Shown here piece by piece: positions 22,326 to 50,881 of a stretch of DNA of 64,000 nucleotides (positions within the stretch are counted from its first letter, which is position 1; each line of letters starts with the position of its first letter). Origin of the DNA: Kyrpidia tusciae DSM 2912 (lineage in GTDB: Bacteria > Bacillota > Bacilli > Kyrpidiales > Kyrpidiaceae); contig NC_014098.1 in the NCBI RefSeq assembly GCF_000092905.1, forward strand, positions 2,790,001 through 2,854,000, in the 5' to 3' direction. Position numbers and translations under genes: made by a program. Under the pieces are notes generated by a model, which was given only the letters and a program-made list of their open reading frames with translations, did no database searches and was not told the DNA's origin.

Positions 22326-24021
22326 GAGCCTTTTTCGATGCCGAAAAGGCCAGGAGGGATAAGGGGTAAGGAGCAGGGACCAGAAAACTTTCCCCCAAAG
22401 AGGGCCAGGAAAGACAGGGGTTTTGAATGGGGGGAGGGATAGATTCGGACAAATTCACCCCAGTCCAATAAGACAGGTGAGTCCTCTTTTGTTAGAATAG
22501 TGGTTAGACAAATGATCCAACAAGGAGGACTCACCCTATGGCCATTATACCACAACTCGAACTGTTTTCCTGGGAAGAGATTGAGCCGCTTGGAGACTTG
22601 GAACGCCTCCGGCTGGTTCTGGAACATCTGCCGGACGAAGCGCTCATGGCGCATCTGGAGAAATCGAGAGGTCATGGACGAGATGACTACCCGGTACGGG
22701 CGATGTGGAACTCGATGTTGGCAGGAATCGTGTTTCAGCACCCGTCGATCGAGAGCCTGCGCCGGGAACTCTCTCGAAACGGGCAGCTGCGGTCGATCTG
22801 TGGGTTGCGCGCAGTTCCCAGCGCAGCCGCTTACACCCGATTTCTCCGCAGCTTGATGGAGCACGGATCGTGGATCGAATCGATGTTCGACGAGCTGGTG
22901 AAGGCCCTGAGTGAGGAACTTCCGGAGTTCGGGCGTCGTTTGGCGATGGACAGTAAGGCAATCGCCTCGTGGGCGTCCCGTCCCTCGAAAGAAAAGAAGG
23001 AAGACGGACGGCGGGATCTGGATGCAGCATACGGGGTAAAAACCTATCGTGGGACCCGCGAGGACGGGAGTACATGGGAGAAAGTGGTCCGGTGGTTTGG
23101 CTACAAGCTCCACCTGGTGGTGGATGCTCAGCATGAATTGCCGGTGGCGTATACGGTGACCAAGGGGTCGCGCTCGGACGTCAAAGAAGGGCATGTCCTG
23201 CTGGATGAGATGGAGAAACGCCATCCGGAGATGTTGAAAAAGGCCGAGGTCCTGACGGCGGATCGGGGGTACGACGACTCGAAACTCCTGAGTCGCTGCT
23301 GGGATGAATATGGGATCAAGCCCGTGATCGACACGAGGCGGATGTGGAAAGACGGGGAGCAAACGCGGTTATTACCGGGACACACGAACGTGGTGTATGA
23401 CGAGGGGGGAGCGGTGTACTGTTACTGTCCAGAGACAGGGGCCCGGCAACAGATGAGCAATGGTGGGTTCGAGAAAGACCGGGGGACGCTGAAAAAAGTA
23501 TGTCCAGCCAAGGCGTACGGGATCACGTGTCAAGGGCGGGAACAGTGCCCCGTGGCCGGAGGGGTGCGGGTGGCGCTCGCAGTGGACCGGCGGATCTTCA
23601 CGCCGATTGCCCGGGAGAGCTACAAATGGGCGAAGGAATACCGGTACAGGACGGCGGTGGAGAGGGTGAACAGTCGCTTGGACGTCTCGTTTGGGTTTGA
23701 ACGGCATACCATTCGTGGGCTGGCCAAGATGCGGTTGCGCTGCGGCTTGGCTTTGTGCGTGATGCTGGCGATGGCATTGGGGAGGGTGCGGGAGAAGCAG
23801 CAAGAACGCATGAGGAGCTTGGTTCGCAGCGTGTCCTAAACGGAACGCGATCGTAGAAGGTGGAGCTCCTGGGCCAGGTAACCAAGAACCTGACCCCGGT
23901 TTCGCATGGCCTGAACCATCCAACCTGTGGATGATAAACCAGATAATGGACATACCAAACTCGCCACGCCGATGGGATTCGTGCTGAAGGTTCGGGGAAA
24001 AAGGGACATCGAAAAAGGCTC
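22326..24021 (+). mobile_element. IS1182-family insertion sequence, copy 1 (1,696 bp)
   Basis: Ends are GAGCCTTTTTCGATG at 22326 and its reverse complement ending at 24021, a 15-bp inverted repeat. One transposase gene fills the element. The sequence is almost identical to copy 2, differing by a 9-bp insertion in the transposase and scattered substitutions. Left flank TTGGG, right flank GCCGGA; the two differ, so this copy no longer has its own target duplication. Confidence 0.85.
22538..23839 (+). CDS. IS1182-family transposase
   Basis: 433 residues; AAGGAGG lies 10 nt before ATG. An N-terminal DUF772-like dimerisation region (about 15-110) is followed by an RNase-H-type DDE core: first Asp in RLAMDSKAIASW, second in VLTADRGYDDSKL, and Glu in YRTAVERVNSRLD. 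A Cys cluster (CPAKAYGITCQGREQC) lies before the Glu. Relative to copy 2 it has an extra LKK after DRGT. It appears intact and probably functional. Confidence 0.9.
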   Translation: MAIIPQLELFSWEEIEPLGDLERLRLVLEHLPDEALMAHLEKSRGHGRDDYPVRAMWNSMLAGIVFQHPSIESLRRELSRNGQLRSICGLRAVPSAAAYTRFLRSLMEHGSWIESMFDELVKALSEELPEFGRRLAMDSKAIASWASRPSKEKKEDGRRDLDAAYGVKTYRGTREDGSTWEKVVRWFGYKLHLVVDAQHELPVAYTVTKGSRSDVKEGHVLLDEMEKRHPEMLKKAEVLTADRGYDDSKLLSRCWDEYGIKPVIDTRRMWKDGEQTRLLPGHTNVVYDEGGAVYCYCPETGARQQMSNGGFEKDRGTLKKVCPAKAYGITCQGREQCPVAGGVRVALAVDRRIFTPIARESYKWAKEYRYRTAVERVNSRLDVSFGFERHTIRGLAKMRLRCGLALCVMLAMALGRVREKQQERMRSLVRSVS

Positions 24022-36281: not shown

Positions 36282-37968
36282 GAGCCTTTTTCGATGCCGA
36301 AAAGGCCAGGAGGGATAAGGGGTAAGGAGCAGGGACCAGAAAACTTTCCCCCAAAGAGGGCCAGGAAAGACAGGGGTTTTGAATGGGGGGAGGGATAGAT
36401 TCGGACAAATTCACCCCAGTCCAATAAGACAGGTGAGTCCTCTTTTGTTAGAATAGTGGTTAGACAAATGATCCAACAAGGAGGACTCACCCTATGGCCA
36501 TTATACCACAACTCGAACTGTTTTCCTGGGAAGAGATTGAGCCGCTTGGAGACTTGGAACGCCTCCGGCTGGTTCTGGAACATCTGCCGGACGAAGCGCT
36601 CATGGCGCATCTGGAGAAATCGAGAGGTCATGGACGAGATGACTACCCGGTACGGGCGATGTGGAACTCGATGTTGGCAGGAATCGTGTTTCAGCACCCG
36701 TCGATCGAGAGCCTGCGCCGGGAACTCTCTCGAAACGGGCAGCTGCGGTCGATCTGTGGGTTGCGCGCAGTTCCCAGCGCAGCCGCTTACACCCGGTTTC
36801 TCCGCAGCTTGATGAGGCACGGGTCGTGGATCGAATCGATGTTCGACGAGCTGGTGAAGGCCCTGAGTGAGGAACTTCCGGATTTCGGGCGTCGTTTGGC
36901 GATGGACAGCAAGGCGATCGCCTCGTGGGCGTCCCGTCCCCCGAAAGAAAAGAAGGAAGACGGACGGCGAGACCTGGATGCAGAGTACGGGGCAAAAACC
37001 TATCGTGGGACCCGCGAGGACGGGAGTACATGGGAGAAAGTGGTCCGGTGGTTTGGCTACAAGCTCCACCTGGTGGTGGATGCTCAGCATGAATTGCCTG
37101 TGGCGTATACGGTGACCAAGGGGTCGCGCTCGGACGTCAAAGAAGGGCATGTCCTGCTGGATGAGATGGAGAAACGCCATCCGGAGATGTTGAAAAAGGC
37201 CGAGGTCCTGACGGCGGATCGGGGGTACGACGACTCGAAACTCCTGAGTCGCTGCTGGGATGAATATGGGATCAAGCCCGTGATCGACACGAGGCGGATG
37301 TGGAAAGACGGGGAGCAAACGCGGTTATTACCGGGACACACGAACGTGGTGTATGACGAGGGGGGAGCGGTGTACTGTTACTGTCCAGAGACAGGGGCCC
37401 GGCAACAGATGAGCAATGGTGGGTTCGAGAAAGACCGGGGGACGGTATGTCCAGCCAAGGCGTACGGGATCACGTGTCAAGGGCGGGAACAGTGCCCCGT
37501 GGCCGGAGGGGTGCGGGTGCCGCTCGCAGTGGACCGGCGGATCTTCACGCCGATTGCCCGGGAGAGCTACAAATGGGCGAAGGAATACCGGTACAGGACG
37601 GCGGTGGAACGGGTGAACAGCCGATTGGACGTCTCGTTTGGGTTTGAACGGCACACCATTCGAGGGTTGGCGAAGATGCGGATACGTTGCGGTTTGGCTT
37701 TGTGCGTGATGCTGGCGATGGCATTGGGGAGGGTGCGGGAGAAGCAGCAAGAACGCATGAGGAGCTTGGTTCGCAGCGTGTCCTAAACGGAACGCGATCG
37801 TAGAAGGTGGAGCTCCTGGGCCAGGTAACCAAGAACCTGACCCCGGTTTCGCATGGCCTGAACCATCCAACCTGTGGATGATAAACCAGATAATGGACAT
37901 ACCAAACTCGCCACGCCGATGGGATTCGTGCTGAAGGTTCGGGGAAAAAGGGACATCGAAAAAGGCTC
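36282..37968 (+). mobile_element. IS1182-family insertion sequence, copy 2 (1,687 bp)
   Basis: The same 15-bp terminal repeats as copy 1 (GAGCCTTTTTCGATG at 36282, inverted at the right end). Same orientation as copy 1. Left flank GCCGGA, right flank TTGGG, the mirror of copy 1. It is 9 bp shorter. The right end lies 14 bp before the -35 box of the TerC promoter. Confidence 0.87.
36494..37786 (+). CDS. IS1182-family transposase
   Basis: 430 residues, nearly identical to the copy-1 transposase; the three-residue LKK after DRGT is absent, and a cluster of differences lies near RPPKEKKEDGRRDLDAEYGAK. The DDE residues (AMDSKAI, TADRGYDDS, VERVNSRLD) are all kept. Same AAGGAGG site before ATG. 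Intact and likely active. Confidence 0.9.
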   Translation: MAIIPQLELFSWEEIEPLGDLERLRLVLEHLPDEALMAHLEKSRGHGRDDYPVRAMWNSMLAGIVFQHPSIESLRRELSRNGQLRSICGLRAVPSAAAYTRFLRSLMRHGSWIESMFDELVKALSEELPDFGRRLAMDSKAIASWASRPPKEKKEDGRRDLDAEYGAKTYRGTREDGSTWEKVVRWFGYKLHLVVDAQHELPVAYTVTKGSRSDVKEGHVLLDEMEKRHPEMLKKAEVLTADRGYDDSKLLSRCWDEYGIKPVIDTRRMWKDGEQTRLLPGHTNVVYDEGGAVYCYCPETGARQQMSNGGFEKDRGTVCPAKAYGITCQGREQCPVAGGVRVPLAVDRRIFTPIARESYKWAKEYRYRTAVERVNSRLDVSFGFERHTIRGLAKMRIRCGLALCVMLAMALGRVREKQQERMRSLVRSVS

Positions 37969-38246: not shown

Positions 38247-38969
38247 TTGGAATTTCTTTCAGCGGCATTTTTCTCTGCGCTTTTGGCCATTATTATCATT
38301 GACCTGGTGCTGGCCGGCGACAACGCCGTCGTGATCGGAATGTCGGCCAGAACGCTCCCCAAGGACCTACAGAAAAAAGCGATTGTATGGGGTACTTTGA
38401 TCGCTATCGTCGTTCGCATCCTCGCCACCTTCGTCGCGGTGTGGCTGCTCGAGATCCCCGGTCTTCTCCTTGCGGGGGGGCTGCTGTTAATCTGGATTTC
38501 TTATAAATTGCTCATTCAGCAGAGTAAGCACGATGGCGCGGCTGGATCCGGCTTGGGAAAGGTTGCCGGCACCATGGCCGTGGCGGAGGCGGCCGTCGGT
38601 CTTCGGGCAGCCATCCGGACCATCGTCGTCGCCGATGCTGCTATGGGCTTAGACAACGTCCTGGCGGTGGCTGGAGCCGCTCACGGTCACTGGATTCTCG
38701 TATTCTTGGGCCTCGTGATCAGTATTCCCCTTGTCGTGTGGGGCAGCACCCTCATCGTCAAGCTCATGGATCGGTTCCCGTGGCTCATCTACGTGGGCGG
38801 CGGGGTCTTGGCCTGGACGGCCGGAAAAATGATCGCCGACGAACCGCTGCTGCAAACAGTATTTGACAACCCCGTCTTGTACTGGATGGTCATCATCCTC
38901 GTCATCGCCGGAGTTCTCACGGCCGGTCTCATCACGAATCAAAGGAGGCACCAAGCCGCGGGGAGTTAA
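38247..38969 (+). CDS. TerC-family membrane protein (YkoY-like, Mn2+ export)
   Basis: 240 residues; TTG start with AGGAGG about 9 nt upstream. Seven helices, with the family's metal-associated acidic motifs LVLAGDNAVVIG in TM1-2 and VVADAAMGLDNVLAVAG in the second half, in inverted symmetry. A yybP-ykoY riboswitch controls it, so a function in manganese efflux or metalation of exported proteins is likely, as for Bacillus MeeF/MeeY. A short, strongly polar C-terminus follows the last helix. Confidence 0.88.
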   Translation: MEFLSAAFFSALLAIIIIDLVLAGDNAVVIGMSARTLPKDLQKKAIVWGTLIAIVVRILATFVAVWLLEIPGLLLAGGLLLIWISYKLLIQQSKHDGAAGSGLGKVAGTMAVAEAAVGLRAAIRTIVVADAAMGLDNVLAVAGAAHGHWILVFLGLVISIPLVVWGSTLIVKLMDRFPWLIYVGGGVLAWTAGKMIADEPLLQTVFDNPVLYWMVIILVIAGVLTAGLITNQRRHQAAGS

Positions 38970-39070
38970 ACCGGCAACTGAGCCGGAACGAAAACACGCA
39001 CCAGCTCAGCGGCCTGGGCCACCCCTGTGCTAGACGCGGACTGCCTCATCAGCAGTCCGCCGCCGCAGGG

Positions 39071-39826
39071 TCAGCTTTGGCGAGGTTCCCCCCGCGTATC
39101 TTCCAAAAATCCCTGTTCCCGAAGGTAGTCGAGCATAAAGGGCCGGCGGGGCGCCTGGAGAACCCGGGCCACGTATTCACTCCACCCGTGGGTGCGTTTC
39201 CCCTCGGTCCGAGCGCGGTAATAGGCGCTCACCGTCTGATCGTAATCGGCGATGTGCACATCCCGGTCCGGTTCGTAGCGATTCCGGTGCAGCACAACCT
39301 CCAGGGGCAGCCGTGGTTTTTTCTCCGGTCGCTCGGCGGGATAGCCCACCGTCAGCGCAAATACCGGGTAAACGAAGCGCGGGATTTCCAATAGCCGGGT
39401 GACCTCGCGGATCTGATTGCGGATCCCCCCGACAAAACAGATTCCCAACCCCATCGATTCAGCGGCCAAGGCGGCATTCTCCGCCGCCAAGGCAGTGTCC
39501 ACGGTGGCCACGATAAAAAGTTCGGCGTTTGAAAGCTCACCCCCTCTGTCCCCGGCTCCTGCGGCCTCCATCATCCGCCTCACGTCTGCACAAAACACCA
39601 GAGCCACCGAACAAGTCTCGACGTGCCGATTGCCGGACAACTCCGCCAGTTCCCATTTTATCTTCGGGTCTCGAACGGCGATCACGGTGTAAGCCTGAAC
39701 GAAGCTGGAAGTGGCCGCCGATTGCGCGCTGCGCACGATCTCCTCGATCATCTCCTCAGATACCTCGCGGGGCAAATACTCCCGTACGGACCGATGGTTT
39801 TGTATCAAACGTATCGTGTCGTTCAC
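39071..39826 (-). CDS. NADPH-dependent nitroreductase (NfsA/FRP type)
   Basis: 251 residues from GTG 39826 (AAAGGGGGG upstream). FMN-binding opening HRSVREY (about 11-17), QSAATSSFVQAYTVIAV, and GGIRNQIREVTRLL with VYPVFALTVGYP are typical of the NfsA-like group; the long C-terminal arm with HGWSEYVARVL is also typical. It reduces nitroaromatics, quinones or flavins using NADPH. Monocistronic on the evidence of spacing. Confidence 0.88.
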   Translation of the reverse strand: MNDTIRLIQNHRSVREYLPREVSEEMIEEIVRSAQSAATSSFVQAYTVIAVRDPKIKWELAELSGNRHVETCSVALVFCADVRRMMEAAGAGDRGGELSNAELFIVATVDTALAAENAALAAESMGLGICFVGGIRNQIREVTRLLEIPRFVYPVFALTVGYPAERPEKKPRLPLEVVLHRNRYEPDRDVHIADYDQTVSAYYRARTEGKRTHGWSEYVARVLQAPRRPFMLDYLREQGFLEDTRGEPRQS

Positions 39827-39940
39827 GACGGCCCCCCTTTCGTTTCCATCTTACCCAGGTATCGTCCGGGGATCAACCGATCCTCGGGCGAGCCCACCTC
39901 TGTGGCGAGAACGTTTGACCAAGACCGTGACCTCGAATAA

Positions 39941-40117
39941 GGGTTGGCCGAGTCCCTGGATCGGATCTTGACCAACCTGAAGGCCCAAGGGTACACCTTC
40001 CGCACTCTGGATGATTTTGAGTCCCCGGCCGGTTCCCTCGGCCGGTTCGGGCCGCGATCGGCCGGACACCTCCCTCTCCCCTTAATCCGAAGGAAAGATG
40101 CCCGCATCATCCGGTAA
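39941..40117 (+). pseudogene. Possible remnant of a polysaccharide deacetylase 3' end
   Basis: Directly after a stop, the frame reads LAESLDRILTNLKAQGYTF then RTLDDF, very like the last helix and strand of NodB-type deacetylases (L.ri...Lk.qGY.fvtldel). Everything upstream is unrelated. The tail to 40117 runs over the end of the neighbouring gene. Only about 27 residues are informative. Confidence 0.35.
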
Positions 40118-40495
40118 ACTCGGGTATTCCCGGAATTGCACGTGCCGAAATACGTGCCGGTTTTCTACCCCGCCGTCCGGCCGCGGCACTGAAGTGTATT
40201 CTCGTCGGGTGGTGGCATAGAGCGGAATCCGCCCGTGCCGCCGACACCACGCCACCGCCAGCAAAATGGCGCCGGGTTCGCCGTGCACAAGCACGAGGTC
40301 ACCCGGCACCGTCTCCTGTTCGATCCAGTTCCAGATCGGGTCCAGCCAATCCGCAGGAAAAGGCCCCTCCGGGGGAATCTGGGACCACCGCTCCTGCAGC
40401 TCCGCGGGTAGGGCCGCAAACCGCCCCACCCTCCATCGTTCCCGGGCCTCCTCCTCCTGCTCCGACATCAGGCTGTGCGAAAAGAGCAAAACCAT
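40082..40495 (-). CDS. csx20: Csx20-like protein (CRISPR-associated family), no CRISPR nearby
   Basis: 137 residues from ATG 40495, with GGTGAGA upstream; an ATG at 40528 overlapping the previous stop is the alternative. The sequence opens MVLLFSHSL, then FAALPAELQERWSQIPPEGP, GDLVLVHGEPGAILLAVAWC, PLYATTRREY and VFRHVQFREYP. This spacing matches my memory of Csx20 proteins (LLFSH, QIPPD, GDYVLIQGDFGA, PIYATTKREA, FKHVRFR). Csx20 is linked to type III CRISPR and has been proposed as a ring nuclease. Here it sits with a metallophosphoesterase and no cas genes in view. Confidence 0.62.
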   Translation of the reverse strand: MVLLFSHSLMSEQEEEARERWRVGRFAALPAELQERWSQIPPEGPFPADWLDPIWNWIEQETVPGDLVLVHGEPGAILLAVAWCRRHGRIPLYATTRREYTSVPRPDGGVENRHVFRHVQFREYPSLPDDAGIFPSD

Positions 40496-40524
40496 GGTTC
40501 TCACCGACAATACGCCCCCACTCC

Positions 40525-41259
40525 TCATCCGAAAGGACTGATCGCCTCCCGAATCACCCGCATCATTTGTAGATTCGGATAATCCACTTGTCGCAAACGC
40601 TCTGCCGCCCGGTCCGCGTCATAGGGCACCCGCTCCAGGGTCACCCGAAACCGCCCGGCCTCCACCTCGAGCAGGGCGTAAGACGGCTGGGGCAGGCCGT
40701 CGAAGGGCAGGCCGACACTACCGGTGTTCACCACACATTTTCCCCAGAGATAGCGCACATAGGGCAGGTGAATATGCCCGTACACATAGACGTCCACCGC
40801 CGGTTTGACCATCAACCGCCCCTCTAATACTTCAGCGGAGGCATCCGGCAACACTGCGGTGAACAAATTGGTGGGCGTGGCGTGAAAGGCGTGAATCCGC
40901 ACCCCTTCGAGATCCCAAAAGATGTCCTCCGGAAGTTCCTCCAGGTATCGCACTTGGTCTGCCGTCAGCCGGCCGGCGGTCCACTCCTGCTCCCGGCGCA
41001 TAATCTCCAAAAACGGGTCCGGCACCTCGCCGGCCTCCACGCCCCGTACCGTCCACAGGTCGGCATTGCCTTGAATCACCTCGGCGCCGGCCGCCGCCAA
41101 CTCCCGCACCTTCTCCACCGCCCGGGTGGGCTCCGCGCCGCGATAGGCGATATCCCCCAGCACCGCGATACGGTCGACACCCCGCTTCCGCACATCCGCC
41201 AACACCGCATCAAGAGCCCCGACATTGCCGTGAATGTCCGACAAAAACGCCACCCGCAT
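40525..41259 (-). CDS. Metallophosphoesterase (YfcE/MJ0936-like)
   Basis: 244 residues from ATG 41259 (GGAGGAGG upstream). Calcineurin-like motifs in order: SDIHGN (about 7-12), LGDIAYRGAEP, QGNAD (GNxD variant of GNHD), HATPTN and YGHIHLPYVR. Such proteins hydrolyse cyclic or linear phosphodiesters with two metal ions. It lies directly upstream of the Csx20-like gene and may be co-transcribed, which is interesting because both could act on nucleotides; this is inference. Confidence 0.85.
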   Translation of the reverse strand: MRVAFLSDIHGNVGALDAVLADVRKRGVDRIAVLGDIAYRGAEPTRAVEKVRELAAAGAEVIQGNADLWTVRGVEAGEVPDPFLEIMRREQEWTAGRLTADQVRYLEELPEDIFWDLEGVRIHAFHATPTNLFTAVLPDASAEVLEGRLMVKPAVDVYVYGHIHLPYVRYLWGKCVVNTGSVGLPFDGLPQPSYALLEVEAGRFRVTLERVPYDADRAAERLRQVDYPNLQMMRVIREAISPFG

Positions 41260-41336
41260 GGTCAAAGCCTCCTCCCGCAGTCGGACAATGCTTCCAGCAT
41301 CACACCACAATAAATATTTATTAATTCCAATCTATG

Positions 41337-41580
41337 TTAGGTATTGTACCCGAAGACCTTGTCAATATCCTTTAAATGTGGATATAGACTTAGTAACTCA
41401 GGTGTAATGTGACATACATAGTTCTCAACTGGAGGTTGTTTAAGGAATATAGCATAGTATCCCGCATAAGAACTACGTGTCATCGGCTCAATTACATCAT
41501 TTCTCGGACATCCTCAGGAATTGCTGGTTCGAATATACCATGTCGGAATAAAACTTAGGTGTTTTTTGTAGGTCACCCGC
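41337..41580 (-). pseudogene. AT-rich frameshifted remnant, family unknown
   Basis: On the minus strand one frame reads FRHGIFEPAIPEDVREMM (about 41485-41545); shifted by one it continues VIEPMTRSSYAGYYAIF, KQPPVENYVCHITPELL and SLYPHLKDIDKVFGYNT with a stop at 41337-41339. The smooth continuation across one frameshift, in a block clearly richer in A+T than its neighbours, indicates a degraded acquired gene. I do not recognise the family. Bases 41581-41687 hold nothing visible. Confidence 0.45.
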
Positions 41581-41687
41581 CACAGGGACCGCAACGCGTC
41601 CACAAGAATGACAACTGGCTCGAGGGACGTTGATGCCCCGTGGCTATGGACCCCACTCAGGATATGTCGAGGATGGCATCATATGCC

Positions 41688-43091
41688 CTATGCGCCTTCT
41701 GCTTCGCCTAACCCCCGACGGGCGAGCTCATTCCAATACACGCACAGCGTCCGGATCCCCTTTTTAAAATTCCCCAGGTCAAAATGCTCGTTCGGCGCGT
41801 GGTTATTCTCGGTGGGTAGACTGAATCCCATCATCACCGCGGTCAATCCGAGAATGCGGTGAAACTCTTCCACGATGGGGATGGATCCGCCCAATCGGGT
41901 GAACACCGGCCCTGTGCCGTACACCGCCTCGTAGGCAGGGATCGCCGCTTGAATGCCCGGATGATCCAGAGGCGCCACATAGGGCCGGCCGCCGTCGAAC
42001 CGCTGCACCTCCACCCGAACGCCCACCGGCGCGTGCCGGGACACGTGAGCCGCGATGAGATCCATGATTTCGCCGGGATCCTGATCCGGGACCAGCCGGC
42101 AGGTGATCTTCGCGTGGGCCTCGGCGGGGATCACCGTTTTCGTCCCCTCCCCTTGAAATCCGCCATAGATCCCGTTGATCTCCAGGGTCGGCCGGGCGGT
42201 GGTCCGCTCGACATAGTTATAGCCCGCCTCCCCAACCAGGACCGATAGACCGAGGTCCCGGGCCAAGGCCCTTTCATCGAAGCCGAGCCCCCGGATCGCC
42301 TCCCGCTCCTCGGGTGTCAAATCCCGAACCCGATCGTAGAAACCCTGCACTCGCACCCGGCCATCGGAACCGTGCATGGACGCCAGGATCTCCACCAGGG
42401 CGTGGATGGGGTTGGGCACGCCGCCTCCGTAGATGCCGGAATGCAGGTCTCCCTTCGCACCGTACACATCCACCTGCAGAGCCGCCATCCCCCTGAGCCC
42501 GTAACAGATCGCCGGACGCCCCGGGGCCAGCATGGAAGTATCGGAAATCACCAGTACATCGGCTTGGAAAAGATCCCGGTTCGCCTCCAGACACCCGGGC
42601 AGACTCCCGCTGCCCACCTCTTCCTCGCCTTCAAAGCAGAATTTTACGTTCACCGGAAGTTCTCCGACAGCCTTTAGCCACGCTTCGACCGCCTTCACGT
42701 GCATGAAAACCTGGCCCTTGTCATCGCTCGTACCCCGGCCGTAGATTTTCCCATCCCGCACCTCGGGTTCAAAGGGCGGCGACTGCCAAAGGTTTAACGG
42801 GTCCACGGGCTGGACGTCATAATGGCCATAAATCAGCGCTGTCGGAGCGCCAGGTTTGCCCATCCACTCTCCATACACCACGGGATTCCCCTCCGTTTCC
42901 ACCAGCCGCGCCCCCTGCACCCCCGCCCGGGTCAGCGCATCCACCAACCATCGCGCCGCCGCCAGGACATCCCCCTTGTGCTCTGACAGCGCGCTGATGC
43001 TCGGAATGCGAATAAAATCCTTGAGCTCCTCTAAAAATCTTTCATTTTCTGCCTCGGCATATCGGATTGCGGCGTCAATTCCATTGTTCAC
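41688..43091 (-). CDS. M20-family dipeptidase (metallopeptidase)
   Basis: 467 residues from GTG 43091 (AAAGGGG upstream). Zinc ligands and catalytic residues are in order: GHYDVQP (His, Asp), GTSDDKGQ (bridging Asp), EGEEEVGS (general base Glu and ligand), VISDTSM (Asp) and HAPNEHFDL near the C-terminus (His). The dimerisation domain lies between about 190 and 330. It cleaves short peptides or related amides. It stands alone, but complements the dpp-type uptake operon and M19 dipeptidase found 10 kb to the right. Confidence 0.9.
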   Translation of the reverse strand: MNNGIDAAIRYAEAENERFLEELKDFIRIPSISALSEHKGDVLAAARWLVDALTRAGVQGARLVETEGNPVVYGEWMGKPGAPTALIYGHYDVQPVDPLNLWQSPPFEPEVRDGKIYGRGTSDDKGQVFMHVKAVEAWLKAVGELPVNVKFCFEGEEEVGSGSLPGCLEANRDLFQADVLVISDTSMLAPGRPAICYGLRGMAALQVDVYGAKGDLHSGIYGGGVPNPIHALVEILASMHGSDGRVRVQGFYDRVRDLTPEEREAIRGLGFDERALARDLGLSVLVGEAGYNYVERTTARPTLEINGIYGGFQGEGTKTVIPAEAHAKITCRLVPDQDPGEIMDLIAAHVSRHAPVGVRVEVQRFDGGRPYVAPLDHPGIQAAIPAYEAVYGTGPVFTRLGGSIPIVEEFHRILGLTAVMMGFSLPTENNHAPNEHFDLGNFKKGIRTLCVYWNELARRGLGEAEGA

Positions 43092-43197
43092 GATCTGTTC
43101 CCCTTTCGTTCACAAATATGGCCCAGAACGCCCCTGTCTTCCCCCCGGGATTTCTGTTAAACTTCTGTAAGAGACTGACAAAAGGAGGGGTCAACTT

Positions 43198-43593
43198 ATG
43201 AAGAAACTTCTCGCTGTCCTCGCGGCAGGCGCTTTATTAGTGGCGGGTTGCGGCGCCGCATCCCAGCCCTCTTCGGGCTCGGGTTCCTCCAGTGCCTCAA
43301 CGCCCACCACCTCCAGCCAAAGCGGATCGTCCTCTTCCTCGTCTTCATCTTCGGGTTCTGGCGGCGGCAGTGCAGACGTGACAGCCTTGTACCAGCAGAA
43401 TTGCCAAGCGTGTCACGGCGCCAACCTCGAAGGAGGAGTCGGACCCGCGCTGGACAAGGTGGGCGCCAAACTGTCCGAAGACCAGATTCAAAAGCAGATC
43501 GAAAACGGCGGTGGAACCATGCCTGGATTCAAGAGCAGCATGAAAGAGGACGACATCAAAGCCCTCGCCACGTGGCTTGCCGCCAAGAAGTGA
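43198..43593 (+). CDS. Membrane-anchored c-type cytochrome (lipoprotein)
   Basis: 131 residues with AAAGGAGG before ATG. Signal peptide with lipobox VAGC, then a flexible Ser/Gly-rich linker (about residues 22-62) and a single-haem domain with CQACH (haem attachment, His ligand) and MPGF supplying the Met ligand. It resembles Bacillus cytochrome c-551 (CccB), a small lipid-anchored electron carrier for terminal oxidases. Monocistronic, followed by an intrinsic terminator. Confidence 0.9.
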   Translation: MKKLLAVLAAGALLVAGCGAASQPSSGSGSSSASTPTTSSQSGSSSSSSSSSGSGGGSADVTALYQQNCQACHGANLEGGVGPALDKVGAKLSEDQIQKQIENGGGTMPGFKSSMKEDDIKALATWLAAKK

Positions 43594-43621
43594 GAACGAC
43601 TCCCAATCTTGAGAAAACCTC

Positions 43622-43658
43622 CAAGCCGGTTGCCTCGGACAGCCGGCTTGCCGTTTTC
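43622..43658 (+). terminator. Terminator of the cytochrome c gene
   Basis: CAAGCCGG (43622-43629) pairs with CCGGCTTG (43643-43650), followed by CCGTTTTCTT. It lies 28 bp after the cytochrome stop codon. Confidence 0.75.
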
Positions 43659-43807
43659 TTGCATCCCTTCATCTCAGTCGCCGGGCAGTTGTTCCTGTTG
43701 CCCGGCGATCCGGCTCGGATGCTGCCTCACTGCATTTGCTATTGCTATCCTATATAGTACCACGCCGTGCCACTTTATTCCCGCCAGGTGGTCGTTCCCG
43801 CCAAAAT

Positions 43808-43849
43808 GAAAAAGCCCGGTCCCGGAACCATGGCCCGGGTCGAGCTTTT
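43808..43849. terminator. Imperfect hairpin, possible terminator
   Basis: AAAAGCCCGG...CCCGG pairs imperfectly with CCCGGG...GCTTTT. Placed between the cytochrome and the convergent secreted-protein gene, with A and T runs at its feet so it could serve the minus-strand gene. Confidence 0.45.
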
Positions 43850-43961
43850 GAACAACCATCCTGGAACGCGGCATGCACATTATTCCATGATCAGCACCCC
43901 GAGAAAGGGGCTTAAAAAGGCCGATTGCCCGCCATGCCCCAGGTTCTCTTGTCCCTGGGCT

Positions 43962-44687
43962 CTACTGCCCGGCCGTCTGGGCTCCAGCCGAGGGCTGCTC
44001 GGGAAGAGGCTTGGGCAATGGCTGAGGAGCAGACTGAATCTCCTCGATGATCCGCGCCCGGAGCAATAGAGGTTTGGACGAATCGCCATTTCCGGAGGGC
44101 TGGGGCAGAGCCATATCCGCATTCGCGCTGGGCGGCGTGCTCCCCGAAGCGCCGCCCCCCGCCGTTGCTGCACCCTGGCTTGGTGCGGACATCTCCGGCG
44201 GCGCGGCGGGAGTCAGAAACGGTACGCTATCCGAGGGCGAACCCTGTGTACCCGCACCCGCCTGCGGGGCCCCTCCGGGTCCGGCAACAGGAGATTTTGC
44301 AGCCGCCGGACCGCCTTTCTGACCGGGAACCTCGGGCACCACTCCGTAGATCACGACCCGCTCCCCGACAAACAGTTCACCTTCTCCCATCGGCTGCCCG
44401 AAGGAAGTCTGAAACTCCGCCGTCGACGTATCCACCCGATATGTGGGCCCAAGCATAATGTATAATGCGCATACTTTTCCCGGCGGGCACGTCGGACGCC
44501 AATCGTCAGCCTTGACCGTCGCCCACCCGGGTTGTACCTCGGTGACCTGCCCTTGAATCACCACATCCCGCCAGACCGGGTCCACGGGCGCCTGCGCCCC
44601 GGAGCCCACCGCCGGGCCCGCCGTCAACCCCGGTACGGCCCCAACAAATGAAGCCATCAAAGCCCCCACCGCCATCGCGGTTTTCAC
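43962..44687 (-). CDS. Secreted protein with an OB-like domain and Pro/Ala/Gly-rich tail
   Basis: 241 residues from GTG 44687 (GGGAGGGG upstream). A signal peptide (about 1-24) is followed by a beta-rich domain (about 40-118): VVIQGQVTEVQPGWATVKADDW, CPPGKVC (a possible disulphide), YRVDTSTAEF and GERVVIYGVVP, resembling small OB-type exported domains. The second half is low-complexity Pro/Ala/Gly. I do not recognise the family. GC is high. Confidence 0.6.
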   Translation of the reverse strand: MKTAMAVGALMASFVGAVPGLTAGPAVGSGAQAPVDPVWRDVVIQGQVTEVQPGWATVKADDWRPTCPPGKVCALYIMLGPTYRVDTSTAEFQTSFGQPMGEGELFVGERVVIYGVVPEVPGQKGGPAAAKSPVAGPGGAPQAGAGTQGSPSDSVPFLTPAAPPEMSAPSQGAATAGGGASGSTPPSANADMALPQPSGNGDSSKPLLLRARIIEEIQSAPQPLPKPLPEQPSAGAQTAGQ

Positions 44688-44973
44688 CGTAATCCCCTCC
44701 CGGTCTCTCGACCTTCCGATCTACTCATCCTAATAGACGGGCGGGCCGGCCGATTTGTTCCCGGCGGGAGTTTTAAATAGCCCATGCCTAGGCTCGGGGA
44801 CCGCACGGGACCCACCGGAATGAGACCACACCAGGGCTGGGGGAGGCGGGGATTTGGTTCGGGGCTCGCGAAGTCCCCGGGGCAGAAGCACTTCGGGAAA
44901 CGGGCATTAAGGATCAAGCGGTTCATAACCTCCGGAACCTCTTCGCTCACATCAAGACCCCAGGGTCTAATGG

Positions 44974-45444
44974 TCACGACAACGTTCTCCCGTGCTCATC
45001 GAACCACTCGATCTCACTAATGCCACATCCTGGAATACTAGTGGAAAGCAATAGAAACAAGCCAAACTTGTAATCCAGGTGCCGTATGTATTGTTTCAAC
45101 TTGTCCTTATCGGTTTCTGGATCCACCTGGGTAGGAAGCTTCTTCATCTCTATGGCAAGCAGATTTGAGGATGTCCCCCTGTGGTGAATAATGATGTCGG
45201 GATACGCTCGCCGCTCACCGCGACTACCAAGGTTTATCAGCTTGGGATTATAGCCGTTACGGTTATATTCACAGTCAATATTCCATGATGAAAATTCTTT
45301 CTCGAGATATACTGCGAGCCTGTGGGCAATAGTTCGTTCGTGTACATCGATTTCGAACAGGTAAATGTCATTGCGGATCAGCATATTAAGACTCTTTTCT
45401 ACTCTCTTTCTCACCACGTAAAAATCTGGGCGAAACATTTTCAT
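44974..45444 (-). CDS. Orphan PD-(D/E)XK nuclease-like protein
   Basis: 156 residues; GGAGGTG 8 nt before ATG. The core reads AYPDIIIHHRG then LLAIEMKK (about 82-101), the Asp and Glu-x-Lys pattern of the restriction-endonuclease fold. An N-terminal conserved-looking segment ERTIAHRLAVYLEKEF precedes it, as in standalone nuclease-like proteins of unknown role. Codon use is clearly A+T-richer than the surrounding genes. It has no methyltransferase partner and abuts an IS remnant, so lateral arrival is likely. Confidence 0.65.
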   Translation of the reverse strand: MKMFRPDFYVVRKRVEKSLNMLIRNDIYLFEIDVHERTIAHRLAVYLEKEFSSWNIDCEYNRNGYNPKLINLGSRGERRAYPDIIIHHRGTSSNLLAIEMKKLPTQVDPETDKDKLKQYIRHLDYKFGLFLLLSTSIPGCGISEIEWFDEHGRTLS

Positions 45445-45462
45445 GGAATTAGCACCTCCCCG

Positions 45463-45807
45463 TCACAACACATGCGGCCATTCTTCACCCCTACAACCTT
45501 GTATTTTCACGGCTGTGCGCACCAGTACAGGGTGCAGCCGCCCTGCGCAAGGATAGTCGACGACCTCCCACACCACTTGGATCACAGGCATGGCGGCCCA
45601 ATAGCGCAGAGGGCGGGGTTCGGCTCTGGCGCCGCCGCGACTCTTTGGTGGGGTCTTCAGGGTGGCGATGGCGTATTTGCGGGCATATCCCAGTGTCTCT
45701 TGCAACTCGTCCAGGATCTGTGATTTTTGCGATCGGCTACGTGCTCGCAGGTAGCGCATCCACATCGTGTTCAAGCATTCCCGCCGACTCTGCATGGACA
45801 TCCACAC
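45463..45807 (-). pseudogene. N-terminal remnant of an rve-type IS transposase
   Basis: Reads MRYLRARSRSQKSQILDEL, ETLGYARKYAIATLK, RPLRYWAAMPVIQVVW then EVVDYPCAGRLHPVL. This is the N-terminal HTH region of integrase-core transposases (usually ..KSRILDE..TGYHRKYA..; VWE..DYPCAKRL). It stops where the catalytic core should begin; the rest is missing. Its insertion probably cut the adjacent xdhC-type gene. Confidence 0.65.
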
Positions 45808-45813
45808 CGCGAT

Positions 45814-45876
45814 CCCTTCGGTAAGATTTCTTCATGAGTGAGCCAACCCCCTTTCGGTAAGATTTTAACTGAGTGA
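45814..45876. repeat. Pair of 28-bp imperfect direct repeats (IS end)
   Basis: CCCTTCGGTAAGATTTCTTC at 45814 and CCCTTTCGGTAAGATTTTAA at 45848 (each continuing to GAGTGA) lie upstream of the transposase remnant. They look like transposase-binding repeats at an IS end; the xdhC homology resumes immediately after the second copy. Confidence 0.55.
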
Positions 45877-46608
45877 TTGCGGACGTGCGCATCCGAGGGC
45901 ACGGTGGAACTGTTTCTGGAACCCAAGAACATGGATCCCCCGCTGATCATTGTGGGGACGTCCCCGATCGCCCTCGCCCTGGAAGAATGGGCGCCCCGAT
46001 TCGCCCTGGCGCCGCTCCGGATCTCTCTGGAAGAGGCGGCACCCGGCGGCGTTGCGGACGAACCGCCGACCAGGCTGCGCAATCAACTGGATCTTCACAC
46101 CGGCACGGCGGCCTATGGCGTGGTGGCCACGATGGGGGTATACGATGTCGACGGACTGCTGGCCCTGTCCGCCCTGCCACTCCGGTATCTGGGCTTGGTC
46201 ACCAGCCCGAAACGCTGGACAGCCATGCGCACCGATCTGGCGGCAGCGGGTGCTTCGAGCGAATTCATCGACTTCGTCACAGCGCCCGCGGGGTTCGATA
46301 TCGGCGCCCTGGGTCCCCAAGAGATCGCCCTCAGTATTCTGGCACAAATCGTGGAGCGCCGCCGCCGCCACGCCCAGGTGCGCTGGCGGGGACAATCGGC
46401 CGAAAGGCATCCGGAACCCGACGAGGCCGCGCACAGCCGAGAGCTTGCGGCCCCCCGACAAGTGATCGATCCGGTCTGCGGAATGACCGTGGACTTGGAA
46501 AAGTCTCCTCACCGTTTGGTGCTGGACGGAACGACCTACGGGTTTTGCTGCGCCGGGTGTCGGGACCGTTTTGCGCGCGATCCGGAAACCTATCTGAGCC
46601 ACGCTTGA
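45877..46608 (+). pseudogene. XdhC-type protein fused to a YHS domain, N-terminus lost
   Basis: The frame enters at the IS end and reads GTVELFLEP, PPLIIVGTSPIALALEEWAP, the Rossmann-type C-terminal domain of XdhC/CoxI (GVVATMG, YLGLVTSPKRW, IGALGPQEIALSILAQIV). Residues about 195-243 are a YHS domain (DPVCGMTVDLEKSPH, GFCCAGCRDRFARDPETY), a metal-binding Cys motif. The usual N-terminal domain (about 100 residues) is missing, cut by the IS. A TTG at 45877 could restart translation without a clear ribosome site. Confidence 0.7.
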
Positions 46609-46707
46609 CGAGCCACCGCATGGGGATCCGTCGGCAACGTCCGGACTTTGGGCCGGAGATCGGCGGCGGCACAAGCATGGACAGAAATCATGTGAGGAGG
46701 CAAAGCC

Positions 46708-47064
46708 ATCCGAACATATGGAGGAGAATATACCCTTGAGCTGCCGAGGGAAAAGGTTTGGGAGTTTTTGATCGATCCCCATCGAGTGGGGCCTTGTATT
46801 CCCGATTTGCTCGAATTGAAGGTCGAGAGTGAGAATCGTTTCACCACTCGTGTGAAGGGCGGCGGAATGGGCAGCGGAGTTGACATGAAAGCGGAAGCGA
46901 CGCTCAACGATGTGGATGGGGGGACCCTCTTGAAATGGCGGTGCGACGCGTCGATCAGCGGGCCCATCGCGAGTCTCGGCGGGCGTCTGATTGACAATGA
47001 GGCGCGCAAAATCATTGAAAAGGTCTTTGCAAATCTGGAGAATGCACTGGTCGTTTCGGTATAG
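46708..47064 (+). CDS. coxG: CoxG-like SRPBCC protein, short form with unusual start
   Basis: 118 residues if begun at ATC 46708, the codon lying exactly 7 nt after AGGAGG where ATG would be expected; no in-frame ATG or GTG precedes the conserved EYTLELPREKVWEFL. CoxG proteins (START/SRPBCC fold) recruit the CoxD AAA protein to the membrane during CO dehydrogenase maturation. Compared with family members, about 30 residues seem absent between ENRFTTRVK and GGGMGSGVDM. It may be a decayed or mutated gene; TTG 46768 gives a truncated product. Confidence 0.6.
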   Translation: MRTYGGEYTLELPREKVWEFLIDPHRVGPCIPDLLELKVESENRFTTRVKGGGMGSGVDMKAEATLNDVDGGTLLKWRCDASISGPIASLGGRLIDNEARKIIEKVFANLENALVVSV

Positions 47065-47082
47065 AAACGGGAGGATAACCGG

Positions 47083-47943
47083 ATGAACGAACAGGTGCGC
47101 CGACTCCAAAAGGAATTGCGGCGGGCCCACTATGTGGCGGAGGAAGGGCTGGCCACTGTCCTGCACTTGGCACAGCGGCTGGCCCGTCCGCTGTTGTTGG
47201 AAGGCCCCGCGGGTGTGGGAAAAACGGCGTTGGCGAAGGCGCTCGCCGCCGTCCGTTCCGTGAATCTCGTTCGCCTGCAATGCTATGAGGGGCTGGACGC
47301 GAGCCAGGCGTTGTATGATTGGGATTACCCGAAACAGTTGCTGACGGCGCGCACGGCTTTCGCCGACGGCGCCGTAAACCAGGCGGCGCTTTACAGTGAG
47401 CCGTTTCTCATCGAACGCCCGCTTTTGCGGGCTCTCCGGGAAAGGCCGGCTCCGGTGCTGCTCATCGACGAAGTGGATCGGGCCGACGAGGAATTCGAGG
47501 CGCTGTTGCTGGAATTTCTGTCGGAATTCCAATTGACCATTCCCGAGTTGGGAACCTTCCGCGCCGATGAGCCGCCGATGGTGCTGTTGACCTCCAATCG
47601 CACCCGTGACTTATCGGACGCATTGCGCCGACGCTGTCTGTACATTTGGGTCGATTACCCGTCTTTGGAACAGGAGGCGGACATTGTCTCCCTGCATGTG
47701 CCGCGGATCGCGCCGGACCTCGCGAAACAAATCGCGCGCGCCGTGCGGAGGTTGCGCAAGTTGTCCCTGCTCAAGCCCCCCGGACTGGCGGAAACGATCG
47801 ATTTTGCCCAGGCCTTGACCGAACTGGAGGTACACGAGTTGGACGAAGGGGTCATTCGCCTAACCCTCGGATGTTTGTTGAAAACCCAGGAAGACCTGGA
47901 GCTGGTGCGGGAGAGGGGACTCGACGTACTATGGAACGCCTGA
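47083..47943 (+). CDS. coxD: MoxR-type AAA+ ATPase (CoxD-like)
   Basis: 286 residues; GGGAGGATAACCGG before ATG. Walker A GPAGVGKTALAKALA (about 44-58), Walker B VLLIDEVDRADEEFEALLLE (about 125-145), sensor VLLTSNRTRDLSDALRRR. MoxR proteins of this branch act with a VWA protein to mature molybdenum CO dehydrogenase (insertion of Cu and S in the CoxL active site). It overlaps the following VWA gene by 13 bp and follows coxG, the usual gene order. Confidence 0.87.
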   Translation: MNEQVRRLQKELRRAHYVAEEGLATVLHLAQRLARPLLLEGPAGVGKTALAKALAAVRSVNLVRLQCYEGLDASQALYDWDYPKQLLTARTAFADGAVNQAALYSEPFLIERPLLRALRERPAPVLLIDEVDRADEEFEALLLEFLSEFQLTIPELGTFRADEPPMVLLTSNRTRDLSDALRRRCLYIWVDYPSLEQEADIVSLHVPRIAPDLAKQIARAVRRLRKLSLLKPPGLAETIDFAQALTELEVHELDEGVIRLTLGCLLKTQEDLELVRERGLDVLWNA

Positions 47944-49058
47944 TCCTTGACGGGATTGGCCGGTTCACGGGCGACATCGTCACCCAGGTGACCCATTTTG
48001 CGCCCTGGCTGCGAAACCATGGGTTTCGCGCCGGGATTTCGGAAACGTTGACCGCCGTCGCCGCCCTGGCGGAATTGAACCTCGACAGCATGGACGAGGT
48101 CTGCAGCGCCTTTCGGGCGATCTATTCCCGAACACCGGCGGAATGGGGCATCTTTCCGAGTTTGTTTGAGCGATATTTTTGCGGTCGGGGAGTGCGACTG
48201 GAGGAGAAGCGCCGCCTGCAGCCGGATGATTCGATCGGCGGCGCCGGCGCCGGTCGGCAGACGGAGCGCCCGCCGGGGGAAACTGTCCAGGGGTTTCTCG
48301 CCGGATATCATCCGTACGACGGCGAACGGTTCGCATTGCGGGCGGACGAGCGGGTGCTGAAAGACGTGGTTCAGTTCACCCGGCTGGCGGTGCGTACGAT
48401 GGACGCACCGCGGGGCCGCAAGTGGCGATCCCGGGGAAGGGAAAAAATCGACTTGCGCCAAACCATGCGGTGCGCCCTGCGCCTGGCCGGGGAGCCCTTC
48501 GTCCTCAGAATGCGCCGGCGCCGTCCCGACAAGCCGCGAATTGTTCTGGCCCTCGACATTTCCGGCTCCATGAAGCCCTATGCGCCGTTTCTCGCGGCTC
48601 TCGCCTGGTCGTTCACCCGGGCCCGGGCGCGCACGCAAATCTTTCTCTTTTCCACGCGGCTGCTGCGGGTGACGTCGCTCATCGCCCGCAAAGGGGTTTC
48701 GGGCATTCCGTTATCCGACCTGCCGGGACTTCGGGGCGGCACTCGGATCGGCGGCGCGTTGGAACAATTGCTTCGGCGCTATCCCAGTTTGCTCCATCGC
48801 CGCACCTGCGTCATCATCGCGTCGGATGGATTTGATGCCGGCCACCCGGAGCGCATGCATACTTCCATGCGCGACCTGGCGGGCCGGGTGGGCCGCGTGG
48901 TGTGGATCAATCCACTGCTCGGCGAGCCGGGATATGAGCCGGCATCGGCGGGCATGTCAATGGCGTTGCCGTACATCGACGCTTTTATCGATGTCCACGA
49001 CGCGGCGACCTGGAAAAAAGCGGTGCTGGGCGGAGCGCTGCGAAGATCGGCGCCCTGA
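47931..49058 (+). CDS. coxE: VWA-domain protein (CoxE-like)
   Basis: 375 residues from ATG 47931, overlapping coxD; the longer frame back to 47646 is antisense-like noise within coxD. The N-terminal region (RNHGFRAGISETLTAVAAL) and the MIDAS motif IVLALDISGSMKPYA (about 200), RGGTRIGGAL and IASDGFDAGHPERM define the CoxE family. It partners the MoxR ATPase in CO dehydrogenase activation. The ribosome site is weak, consistent with translational coupling. Confidence 0.87.
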   Translation: MERLILDGIGRFTGDIVTQVTHFAPWLRNHGFRAGISETLTAVAALAELNLDSMDEVCSAFRAIYSRTPAEWGIFPSLFERYFCGRGVRLEEKRRLQPDDSIGGAGAGRQTERPPGETVQGFLAGYHPYDGERFALRADERVLKDVVQFTRLAVRTMDAPRGRKWRSRGREKIDLRQTMRCALRLAGEPFVLRMRRRRPDKPRIVLALDISGSMKPYAPFLAALAWSFTRARARTQIFLFSTRLLRVTSLIARKGVSGIPLSDLPGLRGGTRIGGALEQLLRRYPSLLHRRTCVIIASDGFDAGHPERMHTSMRDLAGRVGRVVWINPLLGEPGYEPASAGMSMALPYIDAFIDVHDAATWKKAVLGGALRRSAP

Positions 49059-49074
49059 GCCGCCCCCTGAATCA

Positions 49075-50127
49075 TCAACCATGAATTTTCTCCCGCCCGT
49101 GCAGCGGTTCACCCAAGCGGCCGGATCGCACAGCCAGCAATTCGGACACGATCGAAACCGCCACTTCGTCGATCGTTTCTGCGCCTATATCCAGTCCAAT
49201 GGGCGCATGGATCGGAGCGCTGTCGAAGTCGGCGCCGATGTTGCCGAGCATTTCCTGGGTTCGCGACACGGGGCCCAGCACGCCGACGAATTTGGGCCGG
49301 GCTTGCAACGCCAGGCGCAACGCCGCTTCATCCCGCAATTGCAAGTGGTTCATGATGACCCACCAGCTTTCCGCCAATGGCGCGGGATCCGCTTGGTCCG
49401 GTTCGACCACCAGGTGTTCGGCCGCGGGAAAACGACCGGTCCCGTTAAATTCTTTGCGCGGGTCGAGCACGGTGACGCGAAACCCGCATTTGGCGGCGAG
49501 GGCCGCCACGGGCACCGCGTCGTGGCCCGCGCCGCAGATGATCAGCCGTTCGTTCGGCCGCATCGTGTCGACGTAAAAGCGCCGGCCGTCGACGACGGCG
49601 ACTTCCGCCCTCGTCCGGCTCCAGATGCGCTGCGTCAATTGCTGCACGACGGCTTCCGGCAATTCGTCCATATCGCCGGCAATCGGATTTGTGCCCTCAA
49701 AGACAGCGCGGACCCCGGTCGGCAATTCGATGGCCAACGAGATGACGCGATCTTCGGCCACGGCCTCCCGCACCGATTGCCAAAACGGGTCCGAGGAATG
49801 AACGGGAAAAATGGCGACTTCCATGGTTCCTTTACAACCAATCCCGAGGGACCACAACTCGCTTTCACTGAGATCGTAATGGACGAGGCGGGGTTTGCCT
49901 TCCTCGATGGCCTTCTCCGCCCATCCGTAGAGGTCCGATTCGAGGCAACCGCCGCTGAGGGTTCCCAGCATCTTCCCTTTTTCCGTCATCATCATTTTGG
50001 CGCCGGGAAGGCGATAGGCCGAGCCTTTCACCTGGGTAATCGTCAACAGAGCGGTTCGTTCTCCGTCCGACCAGGCCTGTTGTATGCGGGCAAACATTTC
50101 GCGCGCTTCATCGATCCTTGACACCAT
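49075..50127 (-). CDS. XdhC/CoxI family molybdoenzyme maturation protein
   Basis: 350 residues from an initiator before VSRIDEAREMFARIQ (track start 50127). Complete two-domain build: N-terminal VKGSAYRLPGAKMMM and GTLSGGCLESDL, C-terminal Rossmann IICGAGHDAVPVAALAAKCG and KFVGVLGPVSRTQEM with IGLDIGAETIDEVAVSIV. XdhC proteins bind the molybdenum cofactor and support its sulfuration before insertion into xanthine or CO dehydrogenases. It is convergent with coxE. The truncated XdhC at 45877 would be its redundant paralogue. Confidence 0.88.
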   Translation of the reverse strand: MVSRIDEAREMFARIQQAWSDGERTALLTITQVKGSAYRLPGAKMMMTEKGKMLGTLSGGCLESDLYGWAEKAIEEGKPRLVHYDLSESELWSLGIGCKGTMEVAIFPVHSSDPFWQSVREAVAEDRVISLAIELPTGVRAVFEGTNPIAGDMDELPEAVVQQLTQRIWSRTRAEVAVVDGRRFYVDTMRPNERLIICGAGHDAVPVAALAAKCGFRVTVLDPRKEFNGTGRFPAAEHLVVEPDQADPAPLAESWWVIMNHLQLRDEAALRLALQARPKFVGVLGPVSRTQEMLGNIGADFDSAPIHAPIGLDIGAETIDEVAVSIVSELLAVRSGRLGEPLHGREKIHG

Positions 50128-50368
50128 TGATCATCTCCTTGGCTGAACTGGAGGCCGATTCGACAACTGATCGAGATGGCTCCCATCCCGGGGAGCCGAG
50201 GATTCATGGCGAAGTCGGGCTCGACTTAGAGTTAAAGGTTCATCTTGGATTCACAAGACTATTATAGAATATTAGAATGAACTTTTTATATATCCAAATG
50301 GGTGTTTCTTCATGCCCGGTCGGTTACGGCCTTTGGCACTCATTATACCAAGAAAGGTGGTCAACATC

Positions 50369-50881
50369 GTGGATCGACTGTATCGGACAACGGGGTGGAG
50401 CTGTGCTTGGGGCAGCGTTTCCGCAGCCTTCTTCGGCGGCATCCTCGATTTCCTGGCGGGCACATCCGGGCTGCTGACCTTGATCCTCGCCGGCGCAGGT
50501 TCCCTTTCCGGCAGTTATTTGGGACTCAGGATCGGATTGAAAGATGTCCAAGATCTGTTGTCTTCGACGAATCACCCTTTTGAGGTCGTCGGAATCCACA
50601 AACAACATGGAGCCATGTGGTCCCTGATGGGTGCCATGGTGGGCGGAGTGGCCGGGTCGACGGTCGGGACGGTCCTGGCTGCCGCCGGATGGACGTTGTC
50701 CATGCATCGTGTGCCCGGCATGATGGACTTTATGTCCATTGTCAACGTCATGATGGGGGGCGGGATGGGCGGCATGACCGGAGGGGTGATCGGTGCGTGG
50801 CGAAGCGCCATTCGCGTCGGATTCGTCGGAGAAAAAAGAGAGTTGCCATTGTCAGGTCAAAAGACGAAGTCGGAGGTATAG
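50369..50881 (+). CDS. Small Gly-rich membrane protein of unknown function
   Basis: 170 residues from GTG 50369 (AAAGGTGG 8 nt upstream), preferred over ATG 50312, which lacks a site. Hydrophobic segments rich in Gly, Ala and Met (about 12-60, 85-115, 125-150) include glycine-zipper-like runs such as VNVMMGGGMGGMTGGVIG. Both termini are charged. No family recognised. An A+T-rich tract with TATAGAAT at about 50262-50270 could be its promoter. Confidence 0.55.
   Translation: MDRLYRTTGWSCAWGSVSAAFFGGILDFLAGTSGLLTLILAGAGSLSGSYLGLRIGLKDVQDLLSSTNHPFEVVGIHKQHGAMWSLMGAMVGGVAGSTVGTVLAAAGWTLSMHRVPGMMDFMSIVNVMMGGGMGGMTGGVIGAWRSAIRVGFVGEKRELPLSGQKTKSEV

Follow-up and report, generated by a model that had tools for sequence, protein, structure and literature searches.

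The stretch of DNA analysed here (the window) comprises 64,000 bp of the closed, 3,384,766-bp genome of Kyrpidia tusciae DSM 2912 (NC_014098.1, bases 2,790,001-2,854,000), and holds a short run of cox genes that opens with a truncated coxF next to the relic of an insertion sequence (IS) and ends in a coxI-like gene on the opposite strand (Table 1). Our main comparison genome was that of a congener with an intact cox cluster (G001), apparently K. spormannii. In proteins without annotation the start codons were picked by eye. Elsewhere in the window we noted two near-identical transposase genes (22538-23839 and 36494-37786), the second of which matches DDE_Tnp_1 and DUF772, and since further transposase- or integrase-like ORFs lie between about 22 and 38 kb, this part of the window is rich in mobile elements.

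Table 1. Coordinates of the features at the truncated cox cluster, numbered from the first base of the window.
Feature	Position	Strand	Remarks
Sequence between the end of left-flank G001 homology (44766) and the IS relic	44767..45462	.	holds ORF 44974-45444 (-)
ISNCY-like insertion sequence relic	45463..45881	-	transposase N-terminal fragment 45463-45807 (-) and terminal region; end at 45881
Truncated coxF-YHS (XdhC Rossmann + YHS)	45877..46608	+	XdhC_CoxI domain absent; G001 homology from 45882
YHS domain	46462..46602	+	ligand set DPVCGM...FCCAGC
coxG remnant	46708..47064	+	start ATG changed to ATC; 30-residue in-frame deletion relative to G001
coxD (MoxR-type AAA+ ATPase)	47083..47943	+	frame intact, 93% identical to G001
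coxE (VWA_CoxE)	47931..49058	+	frame intact
coxI-like gene (XdhC_CoxI + XdhC_C, no YHS)	49075..50127	-	intact

A truncated coxF-YHS gene at the end of an insertion sequence relic

The coxF reading frame has a possible TTG start at 45877, which falls within the IS end, and its product of 243 residues matches the Pfam families XdhC_C (E 3.8e-17, residues 23-158) and YHS (E 2e-14, residues 196-242), with no Pfam match in this ORF to the XdhC_CoxI domain (PF02625). The G001 ortholog is an intact protein of 335 residues encoded 3' of coxM, coxS and coxL, and it is by this comparison that the window gene is truncated: counted on the full-length gene, the two genomes become homologous at the final base of codon 94 (Met94), and the first residues retained are Thr95 and Cys96. 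Without its N domain and without CoxL, the remnant is probably inactive in CO oxidation.

Upstream of this point the 114-residue ORF of the IS relic resembles annotated ISNCY or DDE transposases (35.5%, E 4e-7), with no match in Pfam, and the stretch 45463-45876 has seven other partial matches in the 3,384,766-bp genome that are 77-97% identical. Comparison of these copies defines the end of the element, as the window copy, L004 and L006 all finish in TTGCG (window 45881) with unrelated sequence beyond, while divergence comes one base before this common end in L002 and three bases before it in L005. The relic therefore shows both the transposase similarity and the repeated common end by which we call it ISNCY-like; this is the only element end that it has, the other side being truncated at about 45463. 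A terminal motif occurs twice, as CCCTTCGGTAAGATTT at 45814 (45814-45829) and as CCTTTCGGTAAGATTT at 45850 (45850-45865), the two copies being 36 bp apart and identical at 15 of 16 positions, with TGAGTGA farther along in both. Because the same tandem motif recurs with few substitutions in L002, L004, L005 and L006, we regard it as part of the element and not as chance. Past the element end, TTGACA follows after about five bases in L002, L004 and L006 (CTGACG in L005), as if the element preferred sites beside -35 boxes, a pattern that the window copy does not fit. On the far side of the relic, the 156-residue ORF at the junction gave no Pfam or NCBIfam match and is absent from the G001 stretches compared.

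These observations bear on a sequence-only reading of the locus, in which paired 28-bp repeats of an IS end were said to abut the exact start of XdhC homology, and an IS insertion to have truncated an XdhC fusion with a C-terminal YHS domain. The fusion is confirmed by the two Pfam matches, and the abutment is exact, with the element ending at 45881 and homology to G001 starting at 45882. The tandem motif is likewise real, although it takes a one-base gap to extend it to a direct repeat of about 28 bp. As to the truncation, an IS relic does abut the truncated gene, but the event was larger than the one proposed, as the deletion also took coxMSL.

Deletion of coxMSL and the cox genes that remain

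To the left of the junction, window positions 38247-44766 are colinear with bases 2,789,190-2,801,476 of G001, which has extra sequence at two places, and to the right the window from 45882 onward corresponds to G001 from 2,826,747 onward. Between these colinear flanks lie 25,270 bp in G001 versus 1,115 bp in the window, and the 25 kb are an upper bound for the loss, in that G001 may have gained some of what lies outside coxMSL. Besides coxM-coxS-coxL and codons 1-94 of the coxF fusion, the G001 interval contains apparent CRISPR-Cas and two-component genes (judged by eye from the ORF list, the first part of the interval being unannotated) that may have been gained there. The order coxM-S-L-(XdhC-YHS)-G-D-E is common to Alicyclobacillus, Bacillus methanolicus and Hydrogenibacillus, which is why we take coxMSL and the 5' part of coxF to be ancestral. 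What is observed, then, is a deletion that ends exactly at the end of the ISNCY-like element and that took coxMSL together with the first 94 codons of coxF minus one base. We infer that it was made by transposition or recombination; since the IS relic is a fragment, an insertion followed by recombination is indistinguishable from a one-step adjacent deletion. As an event, the truncation is unremarkable, a gene loss associated with an IS.

The missing 5' part of coxF was not found elsewhere in the whole genome with either the G001 upstream DNA or the intact protein as query, and we reject on this ground a relocation of this half of the gene by recombination between IS copies. With the G001 upstream sequence, the whole-genome DNA search returned nothing beyond the window itself and two short stretches within the Form II cluster. 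Moreover, the best CoxL-like proteins of the genome score 892 and 663 bits, compared with more than 1,500 bits for Form I (at most two candidates scored per genome), and the better of the two carries the Form II motif AYRGAGR. These scores and the motif fit a published comparison that reports no Form I CoxL match for K. tusciae and both forms for K. spormannii EA-1 (PMC7248562). The ancestral cluster would have had the order coxM-coxS-coxL-coxF(XdhC-YHS)-coxG-coxD-coxE, with the coxI-like gene convergent in most close relatives, and the window would hold the right-hand stump of this Form I (Mo-Cu) CO dehydrogenase cluster.

Within the stump the numbers of synonymous and non-synonymous changes on the window branch are 21 and 7 for coxD, 25 and 14 for coxE, and 18 and 5 for coxI, and the corresponding numbers for G001 are 32 and 6, 22 and 22, and 30 and 5. 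All three of these frames (coxD, coxE and coxI-like) are intact and show no visible relaxation on this branch, which suggests that the loss is recent. The same intact frames and unrelaxed counts next to G001 could also mean that these genes were retained because they mature another molybdenum hydroxylase, for example the Form II enzyme of this genome; however, coxG is without 30 residues and a start codon, CoxE-like and coxG-like genes belonging to the Form II cluster lie close to it, and the loss may simply be recent, and we consider such retention unlikely. As a separate observation, dS relative to G001 is 0.089 for the coxF remnant and 0.456, 0.255 and 0.282 for coxD, coxE and coxI, respectively (window 45882-46864 versus 47070-50877), and the low value of the remnant compared with the other three suggests mosaic ancestry or local recombination.

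The XdhC-YHS fusion as a variant of CoxF

In a tree of the XdhC part, a CoxF clade of 25 rows that includes CoxF of Afipia is separate from the CoxI-like proteins with a support of 100/100, and the window gene is a coxF ortholog. Among the intact CoxF relatives PF02625 was matched in 23 of 24 rows, PF13478 in all 24 and YHS in 15, and as none of the ten CoxI-like or other XdhC proteins scanned gave a YHS match (0/9 for the CoxI-like proteins alone), YHS is not a general feature of XdhC proteins. By structure and by sequence, the XdhC part is matched best by the XdhC/CoxI molybdenum-cofactor chaperones (such as PDB 2we7 and 3on5), yet CoxI-like proteins differ in forming another clade and in giving no YHS match. 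CoxF of Oligotropha (Afipia) carboxidovorans OM5, encoded on pHCG3, shares with the family described here its clade, the XdhC N domain and Rossmann domain, the invariant C-x-S-x-G and its place in a cluster with coxL, coxD and coxE. It differs in that it ends after the Rossmann domain, where the present family adds a linker and YHS, and in that the Met found here two residues before the Cys is an Asn in Afipia CoxF, which has a Met one residue before the Cys instead.

Searches of relatives and of genome contigs recovered intact fusions in several genera. Of 398 genomes in a sample of the class searched for the coxF-YHS fusion (E up to 1e-28), 27 gave a match and 21 encode a full-length protein reaching the end of YHS; in all 21 the gene adjoins coxG and a coxL that is, for the part within the stretch, 88-100% identical to that of G001. 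The other six matches are the truncated copy of the window, a split gene in G018, and XdhC matches in G014, G041, G551 and G768 that stop short of YHS, the neighbour being CoxS-like in G014 and a 41.5% CoxL-like protein in G768, with no cox gene in the stretch around the match in G041 and G551. The G018 gene (L077 9074-10188) lies beside coxL and is split in two frames, by a frameshift or an assembly error. That the 243-residue XdhC_C-YHS protein of the window is a natural short form, with the IS merely lying upstream, might be argued from its open frame with a possible TTG start and from the lack of relaxed change (of the polarised changes of the remnant along the window branch, 5 are synonymous and none non-synonymous), but it is highly improbable, given that homology breaks off mid-gene at the IS end, that the one other short frame found, in G018, results from a split ORF of which both halves remain, and that the full-length form in the congener and 20 other class-sample genomes refutes such an origin.

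Across the phylum, 192 of 398 sampled genomes had some match to the fusion profile (at most five candidates scored per genome), and among the matches listed, to about E 2e-12, XdhC and YHS were both covered only in G408, G378, G152, G114 and the truncated window gene, every other listed match ending before profile position 290 or beginning after 266. In a phylum sample drawn likewise and scored with a CoxL profile (at most two candidates per genome), exactly the same four genomes, G408, G378, G152 and G114, exceeded 1,500 bits, and the CoxL adjoining each of their four intact fusions carries the motif AYRCSFR. Variants of this motif are SYRCSFR in L088, L090 and L091, and AYACSFR in L096. The intact fusions thus lie beside a Form I coxL, which in the window has been deleted. 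Outside the Bacillota our sampling was thin and consisted of plasmid records, of which 115 matched, 40 were listed and 15 of these were examined, picked for the XdhC part with near-duplicates left out; the same organism appears under several identifiers in L040/L072, in L041/L013/L081 and in L035/L011/L082. In the plasmid records examined, CoxF with YHS was found in a coxL cluster of Thermomicrobium, Natronorubrum, Paraburkholderia, Caballeronia and, with a degenerate YHS, Deinococcus, and the nine CoxF proteins with no YHS match are those of Afipia, Bradyrhizobium, two Rhizobium, Shinella, Roseivivax, Pseudosulfitobacter, Marivivens and Nonomuraea. YHS presence requires three changes on the tree of the XdhC part, in which several deep forks are poorly supported, and these may be one gain and two losses. 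A match in the Actinomycetota (L046) was rejected as a further fusion, being a 220-residue YHS protein with no cox gene found in its stretch.

The sequence-only reading had called the fusion unusual and named the protein a molybdenum-cofactor chaperone, with intact fusions beside coxL in other genomes as the proposed check and YHS and XdhC being always separate genes as the case against it. The 21 full-length fusions next to coxL in the class sample do away with the latter, and an origin of the fusion as a local IS artefact is ruled out by the same intact orthologs. The combination is indeed rare among XdhC proteins overall, but it is regular in the Form I clusters sampled in the Bacillota, and the gene is an ortholog of coxF, in a clade apart from CoxI. 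The parts are known families, and the fusion is, as far as our searches go, a new variant of CoxF; the literature searched, with most subscription journals and the domain-architecture databases outside its scope, held no paper that pairs a YHS domain with XdhC, CoxF or CO dehydrogenase.

A possible copper carrier for the Mo-Cu site

Intact coxF is predicted to encode an XdhC-type protein, with N domain and Rossmann domain, followed by a flexible linker and a C-terminal YHS domain. In an AlphaFold model of the Alicyclobacillus herbarius protein, of modest overall quality (mean pLDDT 78.7, pTM 0.65), the N and Rossmann domains are followed by a linker with pLDDT below 50 (residues 268-286) and a folded YHS block with pLDDT 77-88 (residues 291-330). 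The tethered YHS, usually with one Asp and three Cys, would bind copper and hand Cu(I) to the sulfurated Mo site of CoxL, perhaps with the M-x-C-x-S-x-G site in the XdhC part as an intermediate, and the protein would in this way do the job that has been proposed for CoxF in Oligotropha. In the Oligotropha study, CO dehydrogenase from coxE and coxF mutants is without Cu, and the authors suggest CoxF as a copper carrier, with MCPSHGTM as the suspected motif; each of the two mutants is without both CoxE and CoxF, for which reason the share of CoxF itself is not isolated (PMC4240915). The Oligotropha motif aligns with MTCASEGT here, and its Cys, Ser and Gly are invariant in all 24 CoxF rows, although by eye the Cys at the M-x-C-x-S-x-G place is also present in CoxI of Afipia and in the XdhC of G413, and it need therefore not be copper-specific.

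Additional support comes from the ligands of the YHS domain and from a YHS domain in another setting. All 15 close-relative rows (A1; 13 distinct proteins) have the Asp and three Cys, and of the 15 YHS rows in the wider set (A3) 12 retain the Asp, the individual Cys being retained in 14, 14 and 15. An adenylyl cyclase of Mycobacterium phlei has a similar YHS at its C terminus, likewise on a linker, whose proposed Cu ligands are an Asp and three Cys, and of the transition metals tested together with Mg2+, Cu2+ alone activated the enzyme; this protein differs from the CoxF fusion in that the partner is a cyclase and the role is probably that of a sensor (PMC4626032). Copper delivery to CO dehydrogenase, raised as a possibility in the sequence-only reading, is in our view plausible for the tethered YHS domain. 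Against a copper role of YHS stands that the genetically tested CoxF of Afipia and eight other CoxF proteins have no YHS, making the domain dispensable in some lineages, that YHS or TRASH domains may bind other metals, and that the ligands are incompletely conserved: both Burkholderiales rows have Asn in place of the Asp, and CoxF of Deinococcus sp. AJ005 (L084 8001-9062) has a degenerate YHS (SPVDGE, FTCANC) in which the Asp and two of the three Cys are lost.

The pattern at position 94 allows a further, tentative suggestion. In the A3 set Met94 is present in all 14 rows with YHS and an N domain, and at this position the nine rows lacking YHS have Asn in eight cases and Gln in one. It is possible, though we would not call it likely, that there are two kinds of CoxF, one that combines a Met-x-Cys docking site with a copper-carrying YHS on a tether and one with neither, the Met94/YHS relay being lost as a unit, perhaps twice (in alphaproteobacteria and in Nonomuraea). 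As the rows are related, the independent losses number about two, and Afipia CoxF has a Met one residue before the Cys, we treat this pattern as a lead only. The deletion in the window takes Met94 and leaves the Cys site.

The domain could instead sense copper or another metal and so gate CoxF, or bind Fe or Zn structurally, and not carry Cu to the active site. The M. phlei study reads its YHS as a Cu sensor module (PMC4626032), and the existence of CoxF without YHS means that the delivery step does not strictly need the domain; however, the fusion to a protein genetically tied to Cu insertion and the close association with Form I clusters agree at least equally well with delivery, and we think a purely sensory or structural role rather improbable. 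Considered as a whole, a deletion of coxMSL and the 5' end of coxF at an IS end, combined with a CoxF whose YHS domain carries copper, is the best explanation of these data and one that we regard as probable. The visible deletion accounts for why K. tusciae is without the Form I enzyme that its congener possesses, and the YHS-bearing CoxF orthologs offer a definite and purifiable candidate for a copper carrier to the Mo-Cu site of CO dehydrogenase.
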